A DNA stretch of 39,377 bases from an uncultured Bacteroidales bacterium (lineage in GTDB: Bacteria > Bacteroidota > Bacteroidia > Bacteroidales > Muribaculaceae). A program made the position numbers and the translations under genes. The DNA lies in assembly GCA_947175535.1 (NCBI GenBank), contig CAMWNF010000008.1:1-39377 (forward strand). The letters run 5' to 3'. Below, piece after piece: positions 26,291 to 39,133 of this stretch; the stretch's first letter is position 1; every line of letters begins with the position of its first letter. The notes beneath the pieces are model-generated. The model searched no databases, was not told where the DNA came from, and saw nothing but the letters and a program-made list of their open reading frames with translations.

Positions 26291-26409
26291 AATTGTGATG
26301 GCTCAGATTAAGATTTATGGTTTAATGTGATTAATTCTATAGCGATACTCAACAAATGAATTCAATGAAGCGTATTCATTAAACTTCGTTTCTCTGCATC
26401 CTCCCGCAT

Positions 26410-26449
26410 GAATGTGCGATTCCACAAAAGGCATGTGGGAATGTGCGAT
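26410..26449. repeat. 11-bp direct repeat flanking a small inverted repeat
   Basis: GAATGTGCGAT occurs at 26410-26420 and 26439-26449. Between them TCCACA (26421-26426) faces TGTGGGA (26434-26440). The layout resembles a regulator binding site or a short RNA stem; the binding factor is unknown. Confidence 0.6.
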
Positions 26450-26501
26450 GTATAAATTACTTCCGGTAGAATCCACTGCGATTATCATTAAAAATTTGTT
26501 A

Positions 26502-26520
26502 GAAATGGGTAGCCCATTTC
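26502..26520. repeat. Perfect inverted repeat GAAATGGG/CCCATTTC
   Basis: Eight-bp arms around TAG. It is not followed by a T-tract in either direction, so an operator or recombinase-type site is more likely than a terminator. Confidence 0.6.
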
Positions 26521-26767
26521 AAAACCACTTTGTGCTGTCAAGTCAGAGCCACGAGAGACAACCGACATGAGAGCTGCGTCTGTAGTTTTGACAAAAATAG
26601 ATAAAAATTACCGATTAAGCAAAATAATATTTCAATATGTTAGATTTTTCATGTTGGCTGCATCTGAAATTATATTATTAAGCATGCTTTTACGGCATAT
26701 ATGTTCTATTCCGATTTCATTATGCAACTATTGGATGATATCATGGTGAGGTTACGGGAAAATTTTG

Positions 26768-26775
26768 TAACTTTG
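26768..26775 (+). promoter_or_regulatory. -7 promoter element of the polysaccharide operon
   Basis: TAACTTTG ends 42 nt before the ATG at 26818 of the fusion gene. At -33 only a weak TGG (about 26744-26746) is seen. No inverted repeats bracket it, so the invertible-promoter layout of Bacteroides capsule loci is not evident. Confidence 0.5.
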
Positions 26776-26817
26776 TCGTCAGGCGGTGTCGCATTTTGAA
26801 AAGTGCTCACTGTTAAA

Positions 26818-28404
26818 ATGTATTTTTCGTCCACGAGAAAGACGATGACATTAGTTGACATATCCCATCTAAACCTCTGTTCTTGTCTGAGTACGACTGA
26901 AATAGGGGGAAGAGAAGAATTGAAGAATAATTTGGTTTCGTTACCCGACGATATAGATGGTGTAGGATTTGATAACGAATTGGTTAGAGGAGAAAATCTT
27001 GTGTCATATTTTCGGACGAAAATTGCTGAAATCCCCAATAAATCTACGGCTGACAGCAAGCAGAAAGCCTTTAATGCGTTTCTGAACTTTATTGGAGGAG
27101 ATGAAGTCTCCGTGGAGCATTTTGCCGAAACTTATTTGCTTGAATGGGCAGCATGGCTTATCCAAAACAGCTATACACAGAAGACAGCAGCCTTTTATCT
27201 TAAACAACTTGGCACGTTGTATAATCAAGCTGTTGCTGACGGCTTGGTTCCTCAGTCAGATGCATTAGGCATTGTGAGAAAACGCCTTCTGGCAATACCG
27301 GAAGGTTGTTTTTCAGTGATGGTGACTGATTTGGTAAATAGGCTCCGTATATTTTTGCAGTCTTGGGCAGCAGGACATGTCACTAAAGGATTGGCAACGG
27401 ATATTGTCGCTTTTGCTATACTAAACGGTGGAATGTCGTTCGAACAAATCGCAAATTATAAAAAGGCAGACTATCAAGGGGATGATGAGCTTTTGAAACG
27501 CGTTGTTGATAAATACGCCCAACCGCGAAATAAATATCTTTTTCCGCTCGGTCAATCAGTCAAAACGCCAGCTCAGATGAAAAAAGAGCTGAGCAAACTT
27601 TTTTATATTGCTCTGACACCTTATGGCATGTCGCTGTCGAAAGACGAAGAAACTACGGCGACAGATCTGTGGAGCCTCGCAGCATTGCAAAACGGAGTCG
27701 CACCGCGAGTCATGCTCGGCATGACAGACGGCTATGCCCCATCGTTCAATCCTGTTTACAGATTGCTTGAACCCATAAACGTTACAGCCGAAGACGCGGC
27801 GAGGATACAGCAGCGTATAATTACTTCGCTGACCGCCAATCCAACGCATTGGTATGCCATGCAGTTCCGTCCAAGAGTAAAATTCGAACAGGTCAAACAA
27901 GCCCTCGAAGCAATAAAAGACGAAGTCAAATGCACCGACCTGTTTTATCCGAGCGAGGAAATCATGCGCCGAGTCGGAAATAAAATGGTCAAAGAGCGTA
28001 AGCCGATAATTCCCGGATTACTGTTTTTCAGAAGTCGCCCCACTGACATCACGACGATTTTTCGCCATATCGGCAACCTCGCTTGGTGCTACCGCCAGAC
28101 CAACGACCGCACGAGTCCTTACGCCGTAATTCCTACAAGCGAAATTCTCGCATACCAAACAGTGATTGGTCAATTCTCCTCAGATATTGAGCTGTTGCCC
28201 GAAGGAACATTATCGATTAAAGAAAACGACCGCGTTATAATACTCGGCGGCAACTTAGTCGGACAAGAAGCAACAGTCACAGGCGTCAAAGCCTCCGAAG
28301 GCGGCAGAACCATCTACAAACTCTCCTTCATCGGCAACAACAGCATCGAATGGGCTGTCACCGCCGCCCCCCGCCTCCTCCACAAAAATCCTAAATATAT
28401 TTAA
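26818..28404 (+). CDS. Tyrosine-recombinase-like/UpxY-NusG antiterminator fusion
   Basis: 528 aa from the ATG at 26818. Alternatives are a GTG at 26803 and an ATG at 26845, preceded by GAGAAAG. Residues 63-145 look like an integrase core-binding domain (YLLEWAAWLIQNSYTQKTAAFYLKQL) and 160-320 like its catalytic fold (DIVAFAILNGGMSFEQIANYKKADY, YLFPL, SLAALQNGVAPRVMLGM). The family reads TRGMSF, HxxR and LGH where this protein has NGGMSF, TATDLWS and GMTDG, so the catalytic Arg and His residues are not recognisable. Residues 343-445 form an NGN domain (HWYAMQFRPRVKFEQVKQAL, PGLLFFRSR) and 460-510 a KOW domain (VIILGGNLVGQEATVTGVK). Inferred role: operon-specific antitermination, with the recombinase fold serving DNA or RNA recognition. 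It is the first gene of the operon, 30 nt before wzx. Confidence 0.82.
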   Translation: MYFSSTRKTMTLVDISHLNLCSCLSTTEIGGREELKNNLVSLPDDIDGVGFDNELVRGENLVSYFRTKIAEIPNKSTADSKQKAFNAFLNFIGGDEVSVEHFAETYLLEWAAWLIQNSYTQKTAAFYLKQLGTLYNQAVADGLVPQSDALGIVRKRLLAIPEGCFSVMVTDLVNRLRIFLQSWAAGHVTKGLATDIVAFAILNGGMSFEQIANYKKADYQGDDELLKRVVDKYAQPRNKYLFPLGQSVKTPAQMKKELSKLFYIALTPYGMSLSKDEETTATDLWSLAALQNGVAPRVMLGMTDGYAPSFNPVYRLLEPINVTAEDAARIQQRIITSLTANPTHWYAMQFRPRVKFEQVKQALEAIKDEVKCTDLFYPSEEIMRRVGNKMVKERKPIIPGLLFFRSRPTDITTIFRHIGNLAWCYRQTNDRTSPYAVIPTSEILAYQTVIGQFSSDIELLPEGTLSIKENDRVIILGGNLVGQEATVTGVKASEGGRTIYKLSFIGNNSIEWAVTAAPRLLHKNPKYI

Positions 28405-28434: not shown

Positions 28435-29964
28435 ATGACTTCATCTACGGCTAATACAAAAAGGATTGCCAAAAACACGATGATGCTTTACGTAAGAATG
28501 TTACTCATTATGGGAGTAACGTTATATACGTCACGTATTGTTTTAGCAGAATTAGGAGAAACAGATTATGGTATCTACAATGTAGTGGGTGGCGTGGTGG
28601 TTATGTTTTCATTCTTAAATGGAGCTATGTCACAGTCCACTCAACGCTTTTTATCATATGAATTAGGCAGATCAAACGAAGAACAATTAAAAAAGACTTT
28701 TAAAACTGCCCTATCTATTCACTTAATTATTGCTATATTTATTCTATTATTGGCGGAAACGATAGGCCTATGGTTTTTAAATAATATAATGAATATTCCT
28801 CCAGGACAGAAGATAGCGGCTAATTGGGTCTTTCAATGTTCAGTTTTAGCGTATATTGTGTCTGTCTTACAAGTGCCTTTTAATGCTGCAATAATCGCAA
28901 GAGAGCATATGCAAGCATTTGCAATTATAGGCATAATAGAGGTTTTCTTTAAGCTAATCATTGCCTTTTCTCTATCTTTATTTAGGTTTGAAAAATTAAA
29001 AATTTATTCACTCTTAGTGTTGTTTGTGACATTAATAGTGAGTACTATATATATACTTTATTGTAAACGTTTTTTTCGCGAATGCGTTTTGGGTTGGCTG
29101 TACGAGAAACCTTTATTTAGGACGATGTCAAAATACGCAGCTTGGAATACATTTGGTTCGTTAGCATGGATGGGGAAAACGCAAGGATGCAATATAATTC
29201 TCAATATTTTCTTTGGGCCAATTGTGAATGCTGCCTATGGTATTTCAAATCAAGTAAATGCAGCCGTAAATAGTTTTGTCCAAAATTTTACCACTGCTGT
29301 GAATCCACAAATTGTAAAAAGTTTCTCCCAAGAGCAATACTCTGAAATGCAAAAACTATTGACTTATGGTTCGAAATTTGCTTTTTTGTTAATAATAATA
29401 TTATCTTTCCCAATTTTAGTTGCTACAAAGTCAATTCTTCAAAAATGGTTAGTTGAAGTACCTTCATATACCGTTTTATTCACACAATTGGTTATTGTAA
29501 ATTCAATAATAGAATCCTTTTCACATAATATGGCAGCTGCCATTCAGGCAACGGGAAAGATTAAGTGGTATCAAATTATTGTAGGGGGATCAATATTGTT
29601 AAACGTTCCACTTAGTTATATTTTCCTTAAATTAGGGTATAGGCCTCCTATTGTATTCATTATAAGTATTTGTATCTCTATAATCACAATAATTGAGCGC
29701 CTTTCAATTATGAAAGTAATTATTCCGCAATTTTCAATTTATAAATTTATAAATGTGGTATTACTTCCAAGTATGATAATTTGCTTCTTATGCGGGGCGA
29801 TATACTGGGGCATACAGTATTTTGATATAATATCTAAATTTCATTTTGTAACATTAATCGTGTTATCATTTATTGTAGTATGTTGCTTGGCTTATATAAT
29901 AGGACTTAGAAAAGAAGAAAGAGCGTTAATATGTACATACCTAAGAAAAAAGATAGCTTTATAA
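28435..29964 (+). CDS. Wzx-type polysaccharide flippase
   Basis: 509 aa with 12-14 membrane helices. The N-terminus KRIAKNTMMLYVRMLLIMGVTLYTSRIVL and the LGETDYGIYNVVGGVVVMFSFLNGAMSQSTQRFLS segment are typical of Bacteroidetes flippases of the PST/MOP group. It moves undecaprenyl-linked repeat units across the inner membrane. The DNA from here on is clearly more AT-rich than the core. It overlaps the start of the deacetylase-like gene by 34 nt. Confidence 0.9.
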   Translation: MTSSTANTKRIAKNTMMLYVRMLLIMGVTLYTSRIVLAELGETDYGIYNVVGGVVVMFSFLNGAMSQSTQRFLSYELGRSNEEQLKKTFKTALSIHLIIAIFILLLAETIGLWFLNNIMNIPPGQKIAANWVFQCSVLAYIVSVLQVPFNAAIIAREHMQAFAIIGIIEVFFKLIIAFSLSLFRFEKLKIYSLLVLFVTLIVSTIYILYCKRFFRECVLGWLYEKPLFRTMSKYAAWNTFGSLAWMGKTQGCNIILNIFFGPIVNAAYGISNQVNAAVNSFVQNFTTAVNPQIVKSFSQEQYSEMQKLLTYGSKFAFLLIIILSFPILVATKSILQKWLVEVPSYTVLFTQLVIVNSIIESFSHNMAAAIQATGKIKWYQIIVGGSILLNVPLSYIFLKLGYRPPIVFIISICISIITIIERLSIMKVIIPQFSIYKFINVVLLPSMIICFLCGAIYWGIQYFDIISKFHFVTLIVLSFIVVCCLAYIIGLRKEERALICTYLRKKIAL

Positions 29965-30835
29965 AAATAGTTATTAAAGCTATCTTTGTGTGCACATTCA
30001 TAATATTTATTTTTTATATATGGAATCATAACTCTGATGCCATAGAATCGCAATCCCAAAATAAAGTAGTTCATATTAGTATAGATGATGTCGAGGCGAT
30101 TTTTGATTTAATAAATAATCAGGATACATATTCCTCTTTATTTGATCAACCATTCATGGGATATCTTAAAGAATTACATGACAGATATGGAGCGTATTTT
30201 GCGCTATATACTTATAGATCAACAAAATGTGGGGGGGGGTAGTAGATATACCATTAAAGTATAAATCAGAATTTATTAGCAATTCCAATTGGCTAAAGAT
30301 TGGGTTTCATAGCGATAGTCCGGTATTTAATAATAAAATAACTAAACATGAATTTAGAACATCAATTAATGAAGTAAATAATGCCATTAATAGGTTTGCA
30401 GATACTTCTGTTATTGCAAAAACCTTAAGACTTCATTATTATTTTTGCCCAGACTCGTTAATACATTGTTTGGAAAACGTGACAACCCTATTATGTGCAG
30501 ACTCTAAGAATCGTATATCATACAATTTAACTATAGAGGAAGCAAACTATATCTTCAACAATAATCAAATCATTAAAGATAATCTCAAATATATAAAAAC
30601 AAATATAAGATTAGAAAATCATATTAATATTGGCAAGGAATTAAGAAAACTTCAAGATCAAGATACTTTGGTAATATTTACACATGAGTGGGCTCTTATT
30701 CCTCAAACTCCCAGACAAATATTATCAATATTATTGCACGAACATAGGTTTCAATGTAATACTGTAGTTAAAAATAATCTTGAGAAGACGCTTCAATGGC
30801 TTAATGAACACGAATATAAATATTCCTTTTTATAA
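29931..30835 (+). pseudogene. Polysaccharide-deacetylase-like gene, out of frame at a G9 tract (candidate phase-OFF)
   Basis: Two ORFs join into one protein of about 301 aa if the G-run at 30231-30239 had ten (or seven) G. As sequenced, nine G lead to TAG at 30240-30242 after 103 residues. The N-terminus has a membrane anchor (IKIVIKAIFVCTFIIFIFYIW). NodB-like elements, numbered for G10, are HISIDDV (Asp 52-53), GFHSDSP (His 127, Asp 129), LRLHYYFCPDS and IFTHEWAL. It would deacetylate or otherwise trim the polysaccharide in the periplasm. The intact downstream frame and the absence of other lesions argue for slippage rather than decay; an assembly error in the homopolymer is the main alternative. 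Confidence 0.75.
30231..30239 (+). repeat. G9 homopolymer, candidate phase-variation tract
   Basis: Nine consecutive G in an AT-rich operon, placed exactly at the frame break of the deacetylase-like gene. Tract lengths of 7 or 10 restore the full frame; 8 and 9 truncate it. Confidence 0.75.
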
Positions 30836-30843
30836 TTTCTCAA

Positions 30844-31950
30844 ATGGAAAAGATTAAACGTTTTATAGACATTCAAATCCCAGTAACGACGTGTACATTG
30901 AGATGTCATTACTGCTATATAACTCAGCACAGATTGTTTTCAGCTTCAGTCCCTAAATTGAAATATTCAGCAGAACAAATTGGGAAGGCTCTATCAAAAG
31001 AACGATTAGGGGGAATTTGTCATTTTAATATCTGTGGTAATGGTGAAACATTATTACCGGATGAAATGACAGATATAATTAGAGCAATTTTAGAACAAGG
31101 CCATTATGTTATGATTGTAAATAATGGAACTGTTACACGGCGCTTCCAAGAAATGATGACTCAGTATCCAGAAGAACTTAAGAAGAGGTTAGGTTTTAAA
31201 TTCTCGTTTCATTTTCTTGAATTGAAGAAAAGGAATTTGATGGATTTGTTTTTCAAGAATATAGATTTGGTTCGAAAAAATGGGTGTTCCTTTTCATTGG
31301 AATTGACACCATCAGATGAATTGATTCCATATATTGGCGATGTCAAAGAGGAATGTATTAATCGATTGGGAGCATTATGTCATGTAACAGTGGCCAGAGA
31401 TGAGAATGTTGAAGACTTCGTTATATTATCTAAATTATCTCGCGAAGAATATATTAAAATTTGGGGACAATTCAATTCCCCCTTATTTGATTTTAAAATA
31501 AAAATATTTAATGAAAAACGGCAAGAATTTTGCTATACAGGACTGTGGGGCGGTATATTAGACCTGGGGACAGGAATTCTAAGAGCTTGTGACCGAACTT
31601 TTCTTGCTCAAAATATTTTGGATGATCCTATAAAACCTATTAATTTCCGTCCGATAGGTAAATGTAACAAGGCGCATTGTCATAATGGTCACGCATGGCT
31701 TGGGCTTGGAATGATTCCTGAACTTCAAACGCCCTCCTATGCAGATATGAGAGACAGAATTGATGATAAAGGGAATCATTGGCTTAGGCCGGAAATGAGA
31801 GAGTTCCTGAGTCAAAAACTTGCCGATGGAAATGATTTATTAGATGAAAAGAGAAAAGTCCAGATTAAGCGTAGAGCAATTGTAAATAACTCTGTGTGGA
31901 ATCTAAGACATAGGACGGCAAAAATAGTTAGTAAGTTTAGAAATAAATGA
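30844..31950 (+). CDS. Radical SAM enzyme of the polysaccharide locus
   Basis: 368 aa. The iron-sulfur motif is CX3CX2C at residues 17, 21 and 24 (TCTLRCHYCYI). ICGNGETLL corresponds to the GGE-type SAM-binding segment. The C-terminal part has further Cys and His (CDRTFLA, GKCNKAHCHNGHAW), possibly an auxiliary cluster or metal site. Radical SAM enzymes in glycan loci are rare and the substrate is unknown; a sugar or lipid-carrier modification is possible. It ends with an ATGA overlap into the next gene. Confidence 0.88.
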   Translation: MEKIKRFIDIQIPVTTCTLRCHYCYITQHRLFSASVPKLKYSAEQIGKALSKERLGGICHFNICGNGETLLPDEMTDIIRAILEQGHYVMIVNNGTVTRRFQEMMTQYPEELKKRLGFKFSFHFLELKKRNLMDLFFKNIDLVRKNGCSFSLELTPSDELIPYIGDVKEECINRLGALCHVTVARDENVEDFVILSKLSREEYIKIWGQFNSPLFDFKIKIFNEKRQEFCYTGLWGGILDLGTGILRACDRTFLAQNILDDPIKPINFRPIGKCNKAHCHNGHAWLGLGMIPELQTPSYADMRDRIDDKGNHWLRPEMREFLSQKLADGNDLLDEKRKVQIKRRAIVNNSVWNLRHRTAKIVSKFRNK

Positions 31951-32906
31951 ACTTCAGGTCTAAAATATCTGAGTTGCGATTAAATATCGAGAATGCGTTA
32001 TCTCCGATTATTACAGATAAGGTGATATTAGTGGATGCGCCTTACTATGATAACATAGGAGATGTCCTTATCTGGCAAGGAATAATAGAGTTCTTATCCG
32101 CTCAGGGGAAAACACTTATTGCATGTTCAAGTGGAATGACTTTCCCTTATTCGGAAATTTCCGAAGATGTTACTATATTACTCATGGGAGGTGGCAATTT
32201 TGGGGATTTATGGAGATGGTTTCAGAATATCCGCCTAAAAGTGATACAACAGTATCCCAATAATCGAATTGTGATGTTTCCACAGTCAGTATGGTACGAG
32301 GATGAGAGCCTAATTTCTGAAGATGCTCGCATTTTGGCTCAACACAAGGATTTGTATTTATGCGCAAGAGATCAGTGGAGTTATGATTTCTTAAATCATC
32401 ATTTTTCGGCAAATAATGTTTTATTGGTTCCTGATATGGCTTTTTATATTAATGATAAAATATTAGAACCTTATCGAGGTAAAGAATCAGGCCGAAAGCT
32501 ATTTTTCCGTCGTCTCGACAAAGAAATTACAGATGATACACCGGTATTTATTTCCAACGAATATGATATCCATGACTGGCCTACAGTGGAGCATAAGCCT
32601 CAGCGTTTTTATTTCGTGGGAAAAGCTTATGGTGCTGTACGTCGGTTGCATAATAAACCTTTAGTCCGATTCACTAATCATTGTATAGACCTTTTTGCCA
32701 ATCGTTTCATAAAGGATGCATTGGTTAAAATAGGTTGTAAATTTCTATCTCAATATTCCTCAGTCACTACGACTCGTCTTCATGCGATGATACTATCCGT
32801 ACTTCTTCATAAACCTGTAGAATATATCGACAATTCAACAAAAAAACTTTCCGCTTTTGCTCAAACATGGCTGAATGATTTAAAAGAAGTCCGACCTTAT
32901 GAATGA
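31947..32906 (+). CDS. Polysaccharide pyruvyltransferase family protein
   Basis: 319 aa. Family features are DAPYYDNIGDVLIWQGIIEFL at the N-terminus, ILLMGGGNFGDLWRWFQNIR, and TTRLHAMILSVLLHKPVEYIDNS near the C-terminus. It would add a pyruvate ketal from phosphoenolpyruvate to a sugar of the repeat unit. The ATG overlaps the radical SAM stop (ATGA), which suggests coupled synthesis of the two modifying enzymes. Confidence 0.9.
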   Translation: MNFRSKISELRLNIENALSPIITDKVILVDAPYYDNIGDVLIWQGIIEFLSAQGKTLIACSSGMTFPYSEISEDVTILLMGGGNFGDLWRWFQNIRLKVIQQYPNNRIVMFPQSVWYEDESLISEDARILAQHKDLYLCARDQWSYDFLNHHFSANNVLLVPDMAFYINDKILEPYRGKESGRKLFFRRLDKEITDDTPVFISNEYDIHDWPTVEHKPQRFYFVGKAYGAVRRLHNKPLVRFTNHCIDLFANRFIKDALVKIGCKFLSQYSSVTTTRLHAMILSVLLHKPVEYIDNSTKKLSAFAQTWLNDLKEVRPYE

Positions 32907-33870
32907 TTATATAAATGTTTCGGTTTTGGTCCCTATATATGGGGTCGAAAAGTATATCGAACGCTGTGCCCGCTCCCTTTTTGAACAGACCATGAAAGAG
33001 GGAATAGAGTTTATATTCACTGATGACTGTACTCCTGATAATAGTGTAGCCGTTCTAATAGAAGTACTAAATGACTATCCCGAAAGAAAATCGCAAGTGA
33101 AAATCATTCGTCACGAAGAGAACAAAGGACTTGCGGTGGCACGAGTTACAGGTCTAAAAGCTGCCAAGGGCGAATATGTTATTCACTGTGATAGTGATGA
33201 CTGGCCAGAGTTCGATATGTACGAGGTTATGTATCATCATGCTAAAACAAACGATAGTGATATTGTGATTTGTGACTTCTATGAAGGAGATGATAATTCC
33301 GAAGAATATAGGAGACAGAATGTTCCTGAAGAACCGTTAGATATATTTAAAGCGATTATCAATGAATCTCTTCATTCGGCAATGTGGAATAAGATGGTAC
33401 GAAAAAAATATCTTGAGAAGATAAATGTTAATGTCAATCCGGAAATCAGTATGTGGGAAGATATGGCATATATGACACCAGTATTAATATCGGGAGGTAA
33501 GATTTCCAAGATAGATAAGGCTCTATATCATTATCGATGCATCCCGTTATCAATGTCTCGAACTCTATCTGTAAAAACTATAAACTCAAAAATTAAGGTA
33601 GCAGAGTATATATCAGAGTATATACATTCACTTCCCTACTCTAATGACTTTGGTACTTGGTTAGATCTTTTAAAATTGAAATCAAAAGATTGTTATTTAA
33701 TATTAGGAGAAACGTATAATCAACAATTATGGCGCCAAACTTTTCCTGAATCACATAAATCAATTTTCTCAAAACCAATACCAATTATAAAAAAGGTTCT
33801 ATATTCTCTTTGTGATCAACATCTAGATTTTTTAGCGAGAATCTTAGTCGGTTTAAGAAAAAAAGTTTGA
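32899..33870 (+). CDS. GT2 family glycosyltransferase
   Basis: 323 aa. GT-A signature VSVLVPIYGVEKYIERCARSLFEQT, then IFTDDCTPDNS, ENKGLAVARVTGLKAAKGEY and a DXD-type HCDSDDWPEFD near residue 95. The C-terminal part is variable. It adds a sugar to the lipid-linked repeat unit on the cytoplasmic side. It overlaps the pyruvyltransferase stop by 8 nt. Confidence 0.92.
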   Translation: MNDYINVSVLVPIYGVEKYIERCARSLFEQTMKEGIEFIFTDDCTPDNSVAVLIEVLNDYPERKSQVKIIRHEENKGLAVARVTGLKAAKGEYVIHCDSDDWPEFDMYEVMYHHAKTNDSDIVICDFYEGDDNSEEYRRQNVPEEPLDIFKAIINESLHSAMWNKMVRKKYLEKINVNVNPEISMWEDMAYMTPVLISGGKISKIDKALYHYRCIPLSMSRTLSVKTINSKIKVAEYISEYIHSLPYSNDFGTWLDLLKLKSKDCYLILGETYNQQLWRQTFPESHKSIFSKPIPIIKKVLYSLCDQHLDFLARILVGLRKKV

Positions 33871-33930
33871 CTATGTCGGCATAGAGTATTAGCGGTTTAT
33901 TGTTGATATTGCTATAGAAAACGAGATTTA

Positions 33931-35004
33931 ATGTTTCCATATTACGCTATTATTTCGTTTCTGCTGCTTTTCGGAGTAGTATCTTTGGATAAAAGAATTA
34001 GTAAATTTAATAATGGTGGTATTTTACTTGTTAGCATAGTCGTAATAATTTTCAGTGGCTGTAGGATGTGTGGATATGATTACTACACGTATTTAGATCA
34101 TTTCAATTCATTACCTGACTTATATGCATATAAACGGCAAGAATCAACGTTTGAGGTTGGTTATGAATATGTGGTTAGTGCTTTTAAGACCTTTTCTAAC
34201 AATTTTAATCTTTTCCTATTTTTTTATGCGTTAGTAACGATATTGATGGTGATTTTTTTAAGTAAAAAATATTCGCCATTGCCTCTACTCTCAGTTGTCT
34301 TATTTTGTGGTCCCTTCCTTTTTGGTCAAATTATGGGACAAATGCGGCAGCCTCTTGCAAACTGTTTGCTTTACATGTGTATTATTCCATTCTTGCTGAG
34401 GAATAAAAAATGGTCTGTGTTTTTCATATCTTTGTTTATCGGATTTTGTTTGCATAAATCAATAATTTTGATTGCTATTTTTTTGCCATTCATGGGGAAA
34501 GTTTATAGTAAGAAACAATTGAAACAGTTTGGCTTAATTAGTATAGGTTGTTTTATTTTAAGTAGCGTAGTGCACAACTATATATTAAATATTATACCGA
34601 ACAGTTTTTTATTAGCTAAAACAGCTATTAATTATCTCAATTCCAATGTGAGCTTTAATTTGGGAATGTTAGAAAGAATTGTATTATTTGTAGTCGTGTT
34701 GTTTTATAGTTGTAAATATAGATTATATGCTGAAAATAAGGTGTTTAGGATTTTTCTTAATTTGTACGGATTAGGAATGTTGTTGTATATATCTTTAATC
34801 CATGTTTCATCAGAATTTGCTGTGCGAGGAACAAATGGATTATATTTCAGTATAATATTTATACTTCCATATTTGATAAAGAAGGCAATCGGAAGAGATA
34901 AAAGTATTCTGATAGTCGGATCAATTTTGTGGTGTTCATATCTACTGGTGTCTTTTGTATTACGACTACCAAATGAATATTATCCCTATCAATCAATTAT
35001 ATAA
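33931..35004 (+). CDS. EpsG-type O-antigen/capsule polymerase (Wzy-like)
   Basis: 357 aa, very hydrophobic with 10 or more membrane helices. SGCRMCGYDYYTYLDHFNSLPD and FEVGYEYVVSAFK match the conserved loop of EpsG/Wzy polymerases (G-x-D-Y-x-x-Y and E-x-G-Y). No signal peptide. It would polymerise flipped repeat units in the periplasm. A 60-nt gap separates it from the preceding glycosyltransferase gene. Confidence 0.85.
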   Translation: MFPYYAIISFLLLFGVVSLDKRISKFNNGGILLVSIVVIIFSGCRMCGYDYYTYLDHFNSLPDLYAYKRQESTFEVGYEYVVSAFKTFSNNFNLFLFFYALVTILMVIFLSKKYSPLPLLSVVLFCGPFLFGQIMGQMRQPLANCLLYMCIIPFLLRNKKWSVFFISLFIGFCLHKSIILIAIFLPFMGKVYSKKQLKQFGLISIGCFILSSVVHNYILNIIPNSFLLAKTAINYLNSNVSFNLGMLERIVLFVVVLFYSCKYRLYAENKVFRIFLNLYGLGMLLYISLIHVSSEFAVRGTNGLYFSIIFILPYLIKKAIGRDKSILIVGSILWCSYLLVSFVLRLPNEYYPYQSII

Positions 35005-35013
35005 TATTATCAA

Positions 35014-36141
35014 ATGAAAATTGCATATACAATCTCGGGTTTATACAATTCGGGGGGGATGGAGAATATTCTGATTCAGAAAGCCAATTACTTGGCAGAT
35101 GTATTAGGCTACGATGTCACGATTATTACAACTGATCAAAAGAATCGGGGAACGTTTTTCGATCTTTCGGATAAAGTAAAAATAGTGGATTTGGCAATTA
35201 ATTACTGCGATGGACTGAGCAGTAAGTTTTGGCTTCTAAAAAAAATATGCCTGATAAGGAAGCATAGAAAGCGTCTTGCAAGCCGTTTGATTTCAGAAAA
35301 ATATGATATTGTGATATCTTTAATGGCATTTGACTTCACATTTCTATGTAAAATAAAAGACGGAAGTCGTAAGATATTGGAGTATCATTTTGCAAAATAT
35401 AGCAAGGTTCATGCAACAAAAAATAATTTAAAAAAACTAATTCAGAAAAAAAGAGCGGATAATTGGAATAATATTGTATCATGTTATGATAAATTTATTG
35501 TTCTAACGGAAGAAGATAAAAGATTGTGGGGCAATCTAAATAATATAGAGGTAATCCCGAATTTTATTAAAAAATTACCTGGGAAAAGTGCCGAGTTAAA
35601 GAATAAACGTGTGTTATCTGTAGGTAGAGCTGATTATCAAAAAGGCTTTGACATGCTCATTGATGCGTGGGAAATAGTCTCAAAAGAACGTCCTGATTGG
35701 AAACTGACTATTGTTGGTGGGGGAGATAAGACGTATTTGGAAAATCAAATCAAGAACTTGAATTTAACCAACACGGTTGAATTATTACCGCCTAATCCAA
35801 AAATTGAGGAAGAGTATCTTAAAAGTTCAATATATGTCCTTAGTTCACGATATGAAGGCCTGCCATTAGTACTCATCGAAGCAATGTCATATGGTCTACC
35901 TATTGTGGCATTCGGTTGTCAATGTGGGCCAAAAGATATTCTGAAGGCCAGTTTCAGTAGCATAGTTGAGTGTGGTAATGTCGTTTTATTGGCACAAGCT
36001 ATTCTTACATGGATAAACTCGGAAGAGAAAAGAATTGAAGCTAGTAAGGCAGCACTGGCAGAAGCAGGAAACTACAATATTGAACAAGTAATGTCTCAGT
36101 GGGATGCCCTTTTTAATTCGCAGAATAATGAACAAGGATAA
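35014..36141 (+). CDS. GT4 family glycosyltransferase
   Basis: 375 aa with GT-B layout. The N-terminus reads IAYTISGLYNSGGMENILIQKANYL, the inter-domain region VLSVGRADYQKGFDMLIDAWEIV, and the donor site SSRYEGLPLVLIEAMSYGLPIVAFGCQCGPKDIL carries the conserved EX7E. It transfers a sugar from an NDP donor to the growing repeat unit. A G7 run (35052-35058) at residues 14-15 is in frame here and could be a second slippage site. Confidence 0.92.
   Translation: MKIAYTISGLYNSGGMENILIQKANYLADVLGYDVTIITTDQKNRGTFFDLSDKVKIVDLAINYCDGLSSKFWLLKKICLIRKHRKRLASRLISEKYDIVISLMAFDFTFLCKIKDGSRKILEYHFAKYSKVHATKNNLKKLIQKKRADNWNNIVSCYDKFIVLTEEDKRLWGNLNNIEVIPNFIKKLPGKSAELKNKRVLSVGRADYQKGFDMLIDAWEIVSKERPDWKLTIVGGGDKTYLENQIKNLNLTNTVELLPPNPKIEEEYLKSSIYVLSSRYEGLPLVLIEAMSYGLPIVAFGCQCGPKDILKASFSSIVECGNVVLLAQAILTWINSEEKRIEASKAALAEAGNYNIEQVMSQWDALFNSQNNEQG
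35052..35058 (+). repeat. G7 run in the GT4 gene
   Basis: Seven G within codons for Ser-Gly-Gly-Met near the N-terminus. It is in frame as sequenced; loss or gain of one G would abolish the glycosyltransferase. Confidence 0.6.
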
Positions 36142-37126
36142 ACTATCAATAATAATCCCGGCATATAATGTGGGCGCGTATATTAATGAGTGCCTCGATT
36201 CAATTGAGCGTCAGACATATCAAAATATTGAAATAATAATTGTTGATGACGGTTCTAAAGATGATACCTATGCAATAGTGAAACGACGAGCAGAGGAATC
36301 AAAATTAGATTATAAAATTTTCACACAAAAAAATTCCGGTCAAAGTTCCGCAAGAAATCGAGGTTTAAGAGAGGCAAGCGGGAAATATATTGTGTTTGTT
36401 GATAGTGATGATTGGTTGCCAACAAGTGACATCCTCGAAAAGATGTATAATGCTATTGAAGAAACAGGATGCGATTACATACAAGGTGGCGTATGTTTTG
36501 TTAAAAATGGAGAAAAAACGAAGGAGTATCTACCTAAGCGGAAGAATGTCCTTCCCGGCTCTGAAATTCTCGTCTCTGCCATAACGCTAGATAGTCTTTA
36601 TACAGGTCCTATTGCTAAAATTTATAATACGACATTCTTAAAATCGAATTCTTTATATTTTATGGAGGGTTTGGTTAACGAGGACACTGCCCATTCAATC
36701 ATGATAGCGGCAAATGCGAAAACAGTCGGCTTTATAAACGATTGTGTTTATTATATCAGAGAAGTAGAAGGATCAACATCGCGAGCTGATTTTAAGCGCA
36801 TGATTACAACTATGCATGAAGTTTTATCACGTACGGAAAATTATCTCTATAGCTTGAATAAATTTGAGGGTGTAAAAAATATTTTTTATGCCAGATATTT
36901 GAGGTCAATGCTATATAATCTATTACAATCATCGCAACGTTTGCCATATAATTCATTTTTAGCTGATTGGAAATTTTGCATGACTAATACCAATTATTTA
37001 AAGTATAGAAATTATTCAAAGTTTCTTCCTTCAGCACATAAACTGCTATATAAATTGTCTAAGTATCCAAAGGTATTTTATTATTCCTTTCGGGGACTAA
37101 ATCAAATTGGTATAAAAATGCATTAA
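36128..37126 (+). CDS. GT2 family glycosyltransferase
   Basis: 332 aa from the ATG at 36128; an ATG at 36104 would add eight residues upstream and overlap the previous gene further. Signature LSIIIPAYNVGAYINECLDSIERQT, IIIVDDGSKDDT, NSGQSSARNRGLREASGKYIVFVDSDDWLP (DXD). The C-terminal third is helical and variable. It overlaps the GT4 gene by 14 nt. Confidence 0.92.
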   Translation: MNKDKLSIIIPAYNVGAYINECLDSIERQTYQNIEIIIVDDGSKDDTYAIVKRRAEESKLDYKIFTQKNSGQSSARNRGLREASGKYIVFVDSDDWLPTSDILEKMYNAIEETGCDYIQGGVCFVKNGEKTKEYLPKRKNVLPGSEILVSAITLDSLYTGPIAKIYNTTFLKSNSLYFMEGLVNEDTAHSIMIAANAKTVGFINDCVYYIREVEGSTSRADFKRMITTMHEVLSRTENYLYSLNKFEGVKNIFYARYLRSMLYNLLQSSQRLPYNSFLADWKFCMTNTNYLKYRNYSKFLPSAHKLLYKLSKYPKVFYYSFRGLNQIGIKMH

Positions 37127-37133
37127 TAATGTT

Positions 37134-37886
37134 ATGGAAAAAGTAAGTATAATCACACCGGCATACAATGCTTCAAAATTCATTTCTAAAACTATTGACT
37201 CTGTTATTGGTCAAAGTTATGGAGATTGGGAAATGCTTATAGTAGATGATGGATCCCGTGATAATACGGCAGAAATCGTTTCAGCATATGCAACATCGGA
37301 TAACAGAATAAAACTTATTCAACAGACGAATGCAGGGTCTGCTGCCGCTCGTAACAATGCACTCAGAAACGCTAGTGGACGATATGTGTGTTTTTTGGAT
37401 GCTGATGATCTTTGGGATTCTGATTTCTTATCCTCTCAGATTTCTTTTATGAAAGAGAAACAATGTGCTCTCGTATTTGCCTCTTATCGGCGAATCAATG
37501 AAGATGGTGAAGAAATTATGGCTCCGTTTATAGTACCGGAAAAAGTTAATTACAAAGGACTCTTAAAAACCTGCTCGATTTCTTGTTTAACGGCGCTCTA
37601 TGATAAAAATGTTGTCGGAGACAACTATTTTAACGAAAATCTTAGAAGTTTGCGAGATGATCTTGTTTTTTGGCTGCAGATTTTAAAAAGGGTACCATTT
37701 GCATACGGTAACAAAGATGTTCTGGCTTCATACAGAGTTTTTTCTGCAAGCACAACTGCAAATAAGAAAAAGGTTATAAAACCTCAGTTTTATGTCTATT
37801 ATAAGGTTGAAAAGCTTGGTTTGGTGAAGAGTGTTTACTATTTATTGAATTGGGCAGTTAATGGTTTTAAAAAATATCATTTGTAA
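37134..37886 (+). CDS. GT2 family glycosyltransferase
   Basis: 250 aa, shorter than its neighbour. Signature VSIITPAYNASKFISKTIDSVIGQS, LIVDDGSRDNTAEIV, NAGSAAARNNALRNASGRYVCFLDADDLWD (DXD), and RSLRDDLVFWLQIL near the base. It likely adds one of the sugars of the repeat unit. The stop overlaps the next ATG by 1 nt (TAATG). Confidence 0.93.
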   Translation: MEKVSIITPAYNASKFISKTIDSVIGQSYGDWEMLIVDDGSRDNTAEIVSAYATSDNRIKLIQQTNAGSAAARNNALRNASGRYVCFLDADDLWDSDFLSSQISFMKEKQCALVFASYRRINEDGEEIMAPFIVPEKVNYKGLLKTCSISCLTALYDKNVVGDNYFNENLRSLRDDLVFWLQILKRVPFAYGNKDVLASYRVFSASTTANKKKVIKPQFYVYYKVEKLGLVKSVYYLLNWAVNGFKKYHL

Positions 37887-39133
37887 TGGATTTAATTATC
37901 GGTGCAGGTGTAACTGGTTTGAGTTACGCTAATTTTACTCAGAATAAATGCTTGGTCGTAGAGGGCAGTGAGTCTCCGGGAGGCTATTGTAAAACTTTAA
38001 AACGCAATGGGTTCGTTTGGGATTACTCCGGCCATTTCTTCCATTTTCGATATCCGGAACTAGAAGCATTCGTATGTAAGAATATACCGGAAGAAGACCT
38101 TGCTCATGTACAAAAGCATACTCAAATATTATATAACGGTAAATATATTGATTTCCCGTTTCAAAAGAATATACACCAGTTAGATAAACAAGAATTTATT
38201 GATTGTTTATACGACTTATTTAATACAAATTCGTCCGATAACGTCTCTACTTTTAAAGAGATGCTTTATGCTAAATTGGGCAGGTCTATAGCCGAAAAAT
38301 TTTTGATTCCCTATAACGAAAAGCTATATGCTTGTGATTTAAATCGCTTGGATATGGAAGCTATGGGACGTTTTTTTCCAAAGGCAACACCAGAAGAAAT
38401 AATCAAAAATTTTAAGGACGGTGACAATCGCTCTTATAATAGCTATTTTACATATCCAAAGGGTGGCGCGATTCAATATATAGATTCTATATTACAAAAT
38501 ATCAATTGTGAGATATTGTATAATACATTTATATCAAAGATTGATATACAAAATAAAATTGCGTATTCTGCTAATGGTCAAGAGTTTAAGTATGATAATC
38601 TTATTTCTACGATGCCTTTCCCGCAGCTATTGGATGTAACAGGACTTGATTATGATAAAACGCTTTTTACATGCAATAAAGTATTAGTTTTCAATTTAGG
38701 TTTTGATAAAAAAGGTTTCGATAAGAAGAATAGTTGGATATATATACCGTCTAAGGACTTTGTGTTCTATCGTATCGGTTATTATGATAATATTCTCTCA
38801 ACGGATCGATTGTCACTATACATTGAAATAGGTATGGCGGAAAATGCTCCGTTGCCCGACGAAAGAGGATTATTAAGCAAGGTTATAGAAGATTTAATTA
38901 AGGCTGGTATCATTGATGACACGTACGAGCTCGTAGATTACCAGACGATCCTTATGAACCCCGCCTACGTGCATGTGAATAAGTTGAGTGCTCAGGCTGT
39001 TGAAAAGTATAAATCACAATTGGAGAAGGATAATATCTATTCAATTGGCCGATATGGAAGTTGGATATATTGCTCTATTGAAGATAATATATTGGAAGCC
39101 AAAGAGCTGGCTGGTCGAGTTTCCAAAGTTTAA
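37886..39133 (+). CDS. FAD-dependent UDP-galactopyranose-mutase-like oxidoreductase
   Basis: 415 aa. The N-terminal FAD-binding motif is IIGAGVTGLSYANF, followed by VVEGSESPGGYCKT (GGxC/GG turn) and an aromatic DYSGHFFHFR stretch. The overall order resembles UDP-galactopyranose mutase and protoporphyrinogen-oxidase-like flavoproteins (YNEKLYACDLNRLDMEAMGRFFPKA in the middle). It may form UDP-galactofuranose or another ring-altered donor. The classical Glf active-site residues cannot be assigned by eye, so the exact reaction is unsure. Last gene of the operon. Confidence 0.8.
   Translation: MDLIIGAGVTGLSYANFTQNKCLVVEGSESPGGYCKTLKRNGFVWDYSGHFFHFRYPELEAFVCKNIPEEDLAHVQKHTQILYNGKYIDFPFQKNIHQLDKQEFIDCLYDLFNTNSSDNVSTFKEMLYAKLGRSIAEKFLIPYNEKLYACDLNRLDMEAMGRFFPKATPEEIIKNFKDGDNRSYNSYFTYPKGGAIQYIDSILQNINCEILYNTFISKIDIQNKIAYSANGQEFKYDNLISTMPFPQLLDVTGLDYDKTLFTCNKVLVFNLGFDKKGFDKKNSWIYIPSKDFVFYRIGYYDNILSTDRLSLYIEIGMAENAPLPDERGLLSKVIEDLIKAGIIDDTYELVDYQTILMNPAYVHVNKLSAQAVEKYKSQLEKDNIYSIGRYGSWIYCSIEDNILEAKELAGRVSKV

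Follow-up and report, generated by a model that had tools for sequence, protein, structure and literature searches.

A degenerate tyrosine-recombinase fold fused to a UpxY-like NusG paralog leads a glycan operon behind a covarying leader hairpin in Muribaculaceae

The window analyzed here is the whole 39,377-nucleotide (nt) forward-strand stretch of contig CAMWNF010000008.1 (positions 1 to 39,377; assembly GCA_947175535.1) from an uncultured Bacteroidales bacterium of the family Muribaculaceae. One of its genes encodes a single polypeptide that joins a tyrosine-recombinase fold to a NusG/UpxY-like NGN-KOW module, and this architecture was confirmed. The architecture of this fusion, the loss of its catalytic residues, its operon position, a covarying leader element linked to the fusion family, and the inversion of a promoter segment between two relatives are directly supported. 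The fusion is fairly probably an operon-specific, UpxY-type specialised NusG paralog that would be recruited at a hairpin in its leader, with an exapted, dead tyrosine recombinase as its N-terminus. Antitermination, recruitment at the hairpin and the task of the recombinase fold are the parts of this reading that we infer.

Sequence models identified both halves of the protein. Pfam family PF13102 (SAM_5, integrase SAM-like) matched residues 60-147 (E 3.5e-10), and PF02357 (NusG) matched residues 344-424 (E 1.7e-5). The NCBIfam model of UpxY, NF033644, matched residues 345-492 (E 4e-15) below the family cut-off; the window fusion scored 56.2 bits and all 5 of the 5 fusions tested scored 32-58 bits, so that the curated cut-off of 100 bits was not reached. 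Similarly, the LoaP model NF033641 gave 36.1 bits and did not reach its cut-off of 125 bits. The NGN domain was recognised from sequence and the KOW domain from structure. The C-terminal domain is predicted to be strand-rich in the structure model, and RfaH was among the closest solved folds to the NGN domain in structure comparison. A tyrosine-recombinase fold, with its core-binding and catalytic domains, was found in the N-terminal half by Pfam, alignment and structure. An earlier note, made from the sequence alone, had proposed that a single polypeptide carries both folds and had set a structure check of the N-terminal integrase fold; the SAM_5, NusG and UpxY-model matches and the structure agree with it on both points.

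The catalytic residues were then counted in 65 aligned fusions. Arg-I is kept in 4/65, Arg-II in 13/65, the His of the GH motif in 11/65 and the Tyr in 1/65, and the Lys hairpin is deleted in 64/65. The window protein has lost the catalytic R-K-HxxR-Y set. The Pfam catalytic family PF00589 gave 0 matches in the 60 N-terminal parts scanned out of the 65 fusions. Judged from these residues, catalysis is lost across the fusion family, so the loss that had been claimed for the window protein extends family-wide. An active recombinase was ruled out by the same counts.

The fusion recurs within the family. Of 297 same-family genomes, 60 have matches, spread over 11 of 30 genera, with a few matches limited to one half of the protein; 35 named loci, mostly recorded as Muribaculaceae or other Bacteroidales, also match. 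Duncaniella muris DSM 103720 (L097) is an isolate carrier. For the alignment, 104 candidate frames (350 amino acids or longer) were reduced to the 67 that differ in their last 300 residues; 65 were aligned after the truncated L028 and L114 were dropped. Among 393 genomes from the order (at least 6 in the window's family; best 4 candidates per genome scored), the host genome alone gave a full profile match; in nine others the match was confined to the integrase half. The fusion therefore looks restricted, within this limited sampling. Two relatives, L084 and L086, are Rikenellaceae by record title only. A first scan of genome contigs with a single fusion protein as query gave no match, none of the long NusG frames inspected in other families was an integrase fusion, and the host genome has no free UpxY that scores above the cut-off. 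A plasmid or phage origin was rejected: tblastn hits came from 3 plasmid and 5 phage records, all of them partial, within the integrase half and short of 80% query coverage. The architecture is real and recurs in one family, and no description of it was found in the open-access literature searched for UpxY or NusG with integrase or fusion; the earlier note, too, knew of no described family with it.

Related arrangements were also observed. At L210:1566-3280 (G220:C1), the recombinase half and the NGN-KOW half lie as overlapping open reading frames (ORFs) behind one hairpin, either by a frameshift or as a natural split. In the same bacterial family, an ORF of 525 amino acids at L167:3891-6801 (G022:C25) has a SAM-like domain and no Pfam catalytic match; about 770 nt downstream of it the same strand carries a separate UpxY-like gene, and this is maybe an unfused form. 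Another NusG-like fusion, at L150:103-1395 (G401:C8), joins an NGN domain to a C-terminal stretch that weakly resembles an APH phosphotransferase (E 0.008, below cut-off).

A conserved hairpin element precedes roughly half of the fusion genes. Its consensus from aligned upstream DNA is roughly AACCUCUGUU-loop-AACAGGGGG-UCGGGAAGAAUUGU. In 32 sequences, 81.9% of the cells were paired compared with 71.5% after shuffling, and 42 double changes were counted compared with 18.7; neither value was reached in 500 shuffles. Both sides had changed in 9 of 10 pairs, which was reached by 11/500 shuffles, and the pair types were reached by 6/500. Slid versions of the arms never paired above 61.3%. Because the arms had been chosen by pairing, the picking was repeated on shuffled upstream DNA; of 45 loci with a 3' motif score of at least 2, 16 had p<=0.05 (combined p 6.6e-10), and these loci are related. 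G-U pairs are frequent (15/32 at one position, 11/32 at another), and the window strand showed no stable fold as DNA, which together suggest an RNA rather than a DNA hairpin. No Rfam family matched positions 26300-27200 up to E 1. A second motif, about GGTTAAAA or GGTAAAA, was seen by eye between the hairpin and the start codon in many relatives (for example L050, L056 and L057) and is absent in the window.

The hairpin goes with the fusion. A covariance model was trained on fusion loci, the window included, so that matches of training members are by construction. It matched 35 of the 65 fusion loci at E<0.02, and in all 35 the 3' arm motif stands 94-97 nt ahead of window codon 62 or its counterpart. 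Outside the training set it recovered L089 (4.9e-6), L083 (1.8e-5), L093 (8.2e-5) and L041 (0.012), with L091 as a fifth at 0.049; it missed L101, a training member. In the host genome, the single convincing match lies at the fusion leader (E 4.9e-11, a training member), and the next has E 0.77. No hairpin was found at E<0.01 at other NusG/UpxY genes of the order, taken from 50 sources that represent 40 distinct loci; the best match there (0.018) lies several kb downstream of its upxY. This absence indicates that the hairpin accompanies the fusion and not the NGN domain alone. Matches at E<=0.001 occurred in 33 of the 297 family genomes; 37 places were listed, 25 of them training loci. Six of the 12 non-training places precede fusions (G201:C29, G117:C1, G220:C1, G034:C28, G102:C9 and G167:C65), with that of G220:C1 split in two ORFs and that of G034:C28 truncated at the contig end to its recombinase half. 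The five best of the 12 all precede fusions, and the sixth (G103) does not. The fusion L208 (G117:C1) was located via its hairpin and is absent from the protein-search list.

Inverted repeats mark the promoter region of many relatives. Perfect repeats of 15-26 nt were found in 18 of the 58 loci with enough upstream DNA, compared with 1/290 in shuffled DNA. Their arms are 139-241 nt apart, with the right arm 208-222 nt ahead of window codon 62 or its counterpart, and the core is TCTCTT-N3-AAGAGA. Between L033 and L085, 214 bases between the repeats align on opposite strands (77%), and the flanks align on the same strand (gene side 94%, far side 76%); the promoter segment has therefore flipped between these two genomes. 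In the window, the right arm of a weak repeat lies 207 nt before codon 62, near the position of the relatives' perfect repeats. It is perhaps the trace of a decayed, fixed promoter that was once invertible, or a chance match. Among the closest free integrases, 0/11 had the TCTCTT-AAGAGA site beside them and 1/11 had inverted repeats. No on-topic description of Muribaculaceae invertible promoters with capsule, or of invertons, was found in the open-access literature searched. The covarying leader hairpin and the invertible promoters of relatives are additions absent from the earlier note.

The fusion was claimed to be the first gene of a glycan operon, and the co-directional ORFs that follow it bear this out. 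The first of them encodes a MatE-type flippase, next come two small ORFs in which no family scored above cut-off, and radical SAM, pyruvyl transferase, glycosyltransferase, EpsG-like polymerase and FAD oxidase-like proteins follow. The gene upstream is a divergent glycosyltransferase of family 4. Among 32 hairpin loci with downstream DNA, 25 have a co-directional called ORF at most 250 nt away (three more loci end there), and several of the other seven show co-directional overlapping or near frames in a manual listing. Downstream genes of the fusion loci were picked (90) and scanned for families (79). The top families were class I/II aminotransferases (8), DegT (7), Polysacc_synt_3 (6), Polysacc_synt (6), UDP-sugar dehydrogenases (4) and Poly_export (4).

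Ten fusions (L105, L107-L113, L116, L117) form a clade apart in the tree with support 100/99. The next called ORF lies on the opposite strand in 8/10 of them. A convergent GH88 neighbour was found in 4/4 scanned (L105, L110, L112, L116), followed by a GH106 gene in 2/2 scanned (L105, L116); these four fusions thus adjoin genes for glycan degradation. None of the ten has a leader hairpin match (L109 and L113 have little upstream DNA). In the genomes of 7 members, nothing convincing was found elsewhere among the best 150 candidates per genome, six being without a match and one having E 0.016. The nearest relatives of the clade, L065 and L106, lead co-directional runs, also without the hairpin. 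The opposite-strand neighbours and the missing hairpin suggest that these proteins beside GH88 genes may be regulators acting in trans on another signal. The notion that homologues always lead glycan operons thus stands for the window and for most hairpin loci and fails for this clade. The features of the window are collected in Table 1.

Table 1 Features of the fusion locus in the window.
Feature	Positions	Strand	Remarks
Fusion gene	26818..28404	+	528 amino acids, stop included; one intact ORF; true start uncertain, possibly TTG 26980
Core-binding (SAM-like) domain	26995..27258	+	residues 60-147
Degenerate recombinase catalytic-like domain	27268..27834	+	about residues 151-339; Arg-I, Lys hairpin, Arg-II/His and Tyr lost
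NGN domain (NusG/UpxY-like)	27844..28176	+	about residues 343-453
KOW domain	28192..28401	+	about residues 459-528
Conserved leader hairpin element	26866..26927	+	5' arm CCUCUGUU 26874-26881; 3' arm AAUAGGGG 26901-26908; then purine-rich tail
Candidate Bacteroidetes-type promoter -7 box	26768..26775	+	TAACTTTG, which we take to be such a box; candidate only, by eye; position resembles relatives
Weak inverted repeat	26511..26807	.	arms 26511-26524 and 26794-26807; 14 nt, 86%
Eleven downstream co-directional ORFs, glycan operon	28435..39133	+	flippase, pyruvyl transferase, glycosyltransferases, EpsG-like polymerase, oxidase

A mechanism can be proposed for the fusion as a specialised NusG paralog. 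RNA polymerase would start at the promoter, which is invertible in many relatives, and transcribe the leader with its conserved hairpin, where the fusion protein, itself a product of this operon, would be recruited. The NGN domain would clamp the polymerase, and the KOW domain would sustain elongation or translation coupling, which would let the polymerase read to the end of the long glycan operon. The recombinase fold would no longer cut DNA; most likely it would provide an extra contact near the upstream edge of the polymerase, giving specificity, with the leader hairpin, the upstream duplex or a partner protein as candidate contacts. Recruitment at the hairpin and read-through of the operon appear most likely because of the analogy with UpxY and LoaP. 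The co-occurrence of hairpin and fusion, and the absence of the hairpin at the other UpxY genes searched, argue that the added recombinase fold matters.

The known systems resemble the fusion in part. UpxY, the antiterminators of Bacteroides capsule operons (NF033644), share with it the NGN-KOW module, the first position in the operon, the leader and the often invertible promoter. UpxY frames differ in being mostly 160-220 amino acids long without a recombinase fold, the fusion lies below the UpxY cut-off, the hairpin model has no match at the UpxY loci searched, and no UpxZ was found in the host genome, a weak point. On UpxY recruitment, Saba et al. 2024 is probably the main paper. In passages of published papers, UpxY is described as preventing premature termination in the 5' leader of its own operon (PMC7819879, PMC7315117) and as the first gene of capsule-type operons with an upstream leader and an often invertible promoter (PMC12632263, PMC7315117). 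Passages of a further paper attribute to UpxY a contact with the DNA duplex upstream and to LoaP the need for a small leader RNA hairpin (PMC12691694). LoaP is thus similar as a specialised NusG with a leader RNA hairpin; it differs in its UNCG hairpin and its antibiotic operons, whereas the hairpin of the fusion loci differs in sequence and is longer in its loop, and the fusion falls below the LoaP cut-off. To our knowledge, LoaP has no recombinase fold. RfaH with ops is similarly presented, in excerpts of the literature, as a specialised NusG recruited at a leader element. RfaH acts in trans, has a fold-switching C-terminal domain and is not known to carry a recombinase fold.

The recombinase half has its own parallels. 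MrpR has lost catalysis and uses the tyrosine-recombinase fold without recombination (PMC10516654). MrpR/YopR and SroF of SPbeta-group phages, SroF being known from a Protein Data Bank title alone, share with the fusion this use of the fold without recombination. They differ in that they are not fused to NusG, and MrpR keeps Lys and Tyr and binds duplex operators, whereas the fusions have lost the Lys hairpin and the Tyr. At L158:2605-4971 (G355:C2), an integrase gene, 17-nt inverted repeats and a separate upxY form an unfused arrangement. This locus has both protein kinds and the repeats side by side, as in the fusion loci with repeats, and differs in that two genes are involved and the integrase has the Pfam catalytic domain.

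Several results weigh against the proposed mechanism. The window hairpin alone gave p 0.073 in the arm-picking control; as RNA it has -13.4 kcal/mol with z -0.72 and folds no better than shuffles, and the window leader showed no intrinsic terminator. Training members make up 31 of the 35 matching loci, and 30 of the 65 fusion loci have no hairpin at E<0.02, including the operon-leading L065 and L106 (a few of the 30 have little upstream DNA). Among the 12 non-training hairpin places, two lead glycan operons without an adjoining fusion and four are without a fusion found. The two operons, each with a glycosyltransferase, are L202 (G008:C18; E 1.9e-4) and L205 (G112:C20; E 4.5e-4), and they may be targets in trans, loci from which the gene has disappeared, or chance matches. 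Basic positions of the recombinase fold have been lost as well. Related integrases share 21 basic columns, of which 3 are still basic in fusions and 4 are deleted, and the net charge over 246 shared columns is 5.2 in fusions compared with 10.0 in integrases. This loss speaks against an unchanged DNA-binding surface, but a new one may have arisen.

The loss of basic residues also means that the recombinase fold may bind protein instead. It could serve as a protein-interaction or autoinhibitory domain that plays the role of UpxZ in cis, while the NGN domain alone reads the hairpin; this alternative is possible, though we lean against it. The mean charges in the family favour it, as the SAM part is near neutral (-0.6; catalytic-like part +2.1) and the NGN domain is basic (+6.7) with conserved R351, R384, K389 and R405. 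The missing UpxZ in the host genome is weak support, since the control of that search matched nowhere. The 40 distinct NusG/UpxY loci without the hairpin stand against an NGN domain that reads it alone.

The earlier note had cast the recombinase fold as a DNA-targeting module that guides antitermination. Such a module would bind duplex near the promoter or the inverted repeats, as MrpR/YopR bind operators, and would load the antiterminator. This is doubtful, and it would be a special form of the specialised-NusG explanation rather than exclusive of it. It is unproven because the fold retains only 3/21 of the basic positions conserved in integrases; in addition, 40 of the 58 loci, the window among them, are without perfect repeats. 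An equally tentative version is that a captured promoter-flipping recombinase was remade as a nucleic-acid reader, of the RNA hairpin or of the DNA behind the polymerase, which would confine antitermination to its own phase-variable operon. If this is true, one lineage of folds would control first the promoter and then elongation.

It is also unlikely, to a similar degree, that the hairpin is a translational or attenuation element, for example one that controls the start of the fusion, with the protein acting on the operon otherwise. The fixed spacing of 94-97 nt from the folded core, seen in 35/35 matching loci, is in its favour. The reading frame also passes through the hairpin in the window clade, and L005/L085 (one contig) have an in-frame ATG inside the 3' arm. 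Yet the distances of 94, 95, 96 and 97 nt are not in one frame, and many relatives have an ATG that lies, by eye, well beyond the hairpin.

A join of two separate genes during assembly or sequencing, against which the earlier note had warned and for which only the unusual architecture and the split relative L210 speak, is refuted for practical purposes by the 65 non-redundant fusions from many assemblies, that of the isolate Duncaniella muris DSM 103720 included.

As a specialised NusG paralog, the fusion would add a class of such factors that combines a large exapted enzyme fold with its own cis element. One carrier, Duncaniella muris DSM 103720, is a culture-collection strain, and therefore the way in which a NusG paralog discriminates its own operon is directly testable. 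Capsule switching decides the phage sensitivity and the immune contact of gut Bacteroidales, and the Muribaculaceae are abundant in mice and little studied. The system points to an unstudied control of surface sugars in gut bacteria.
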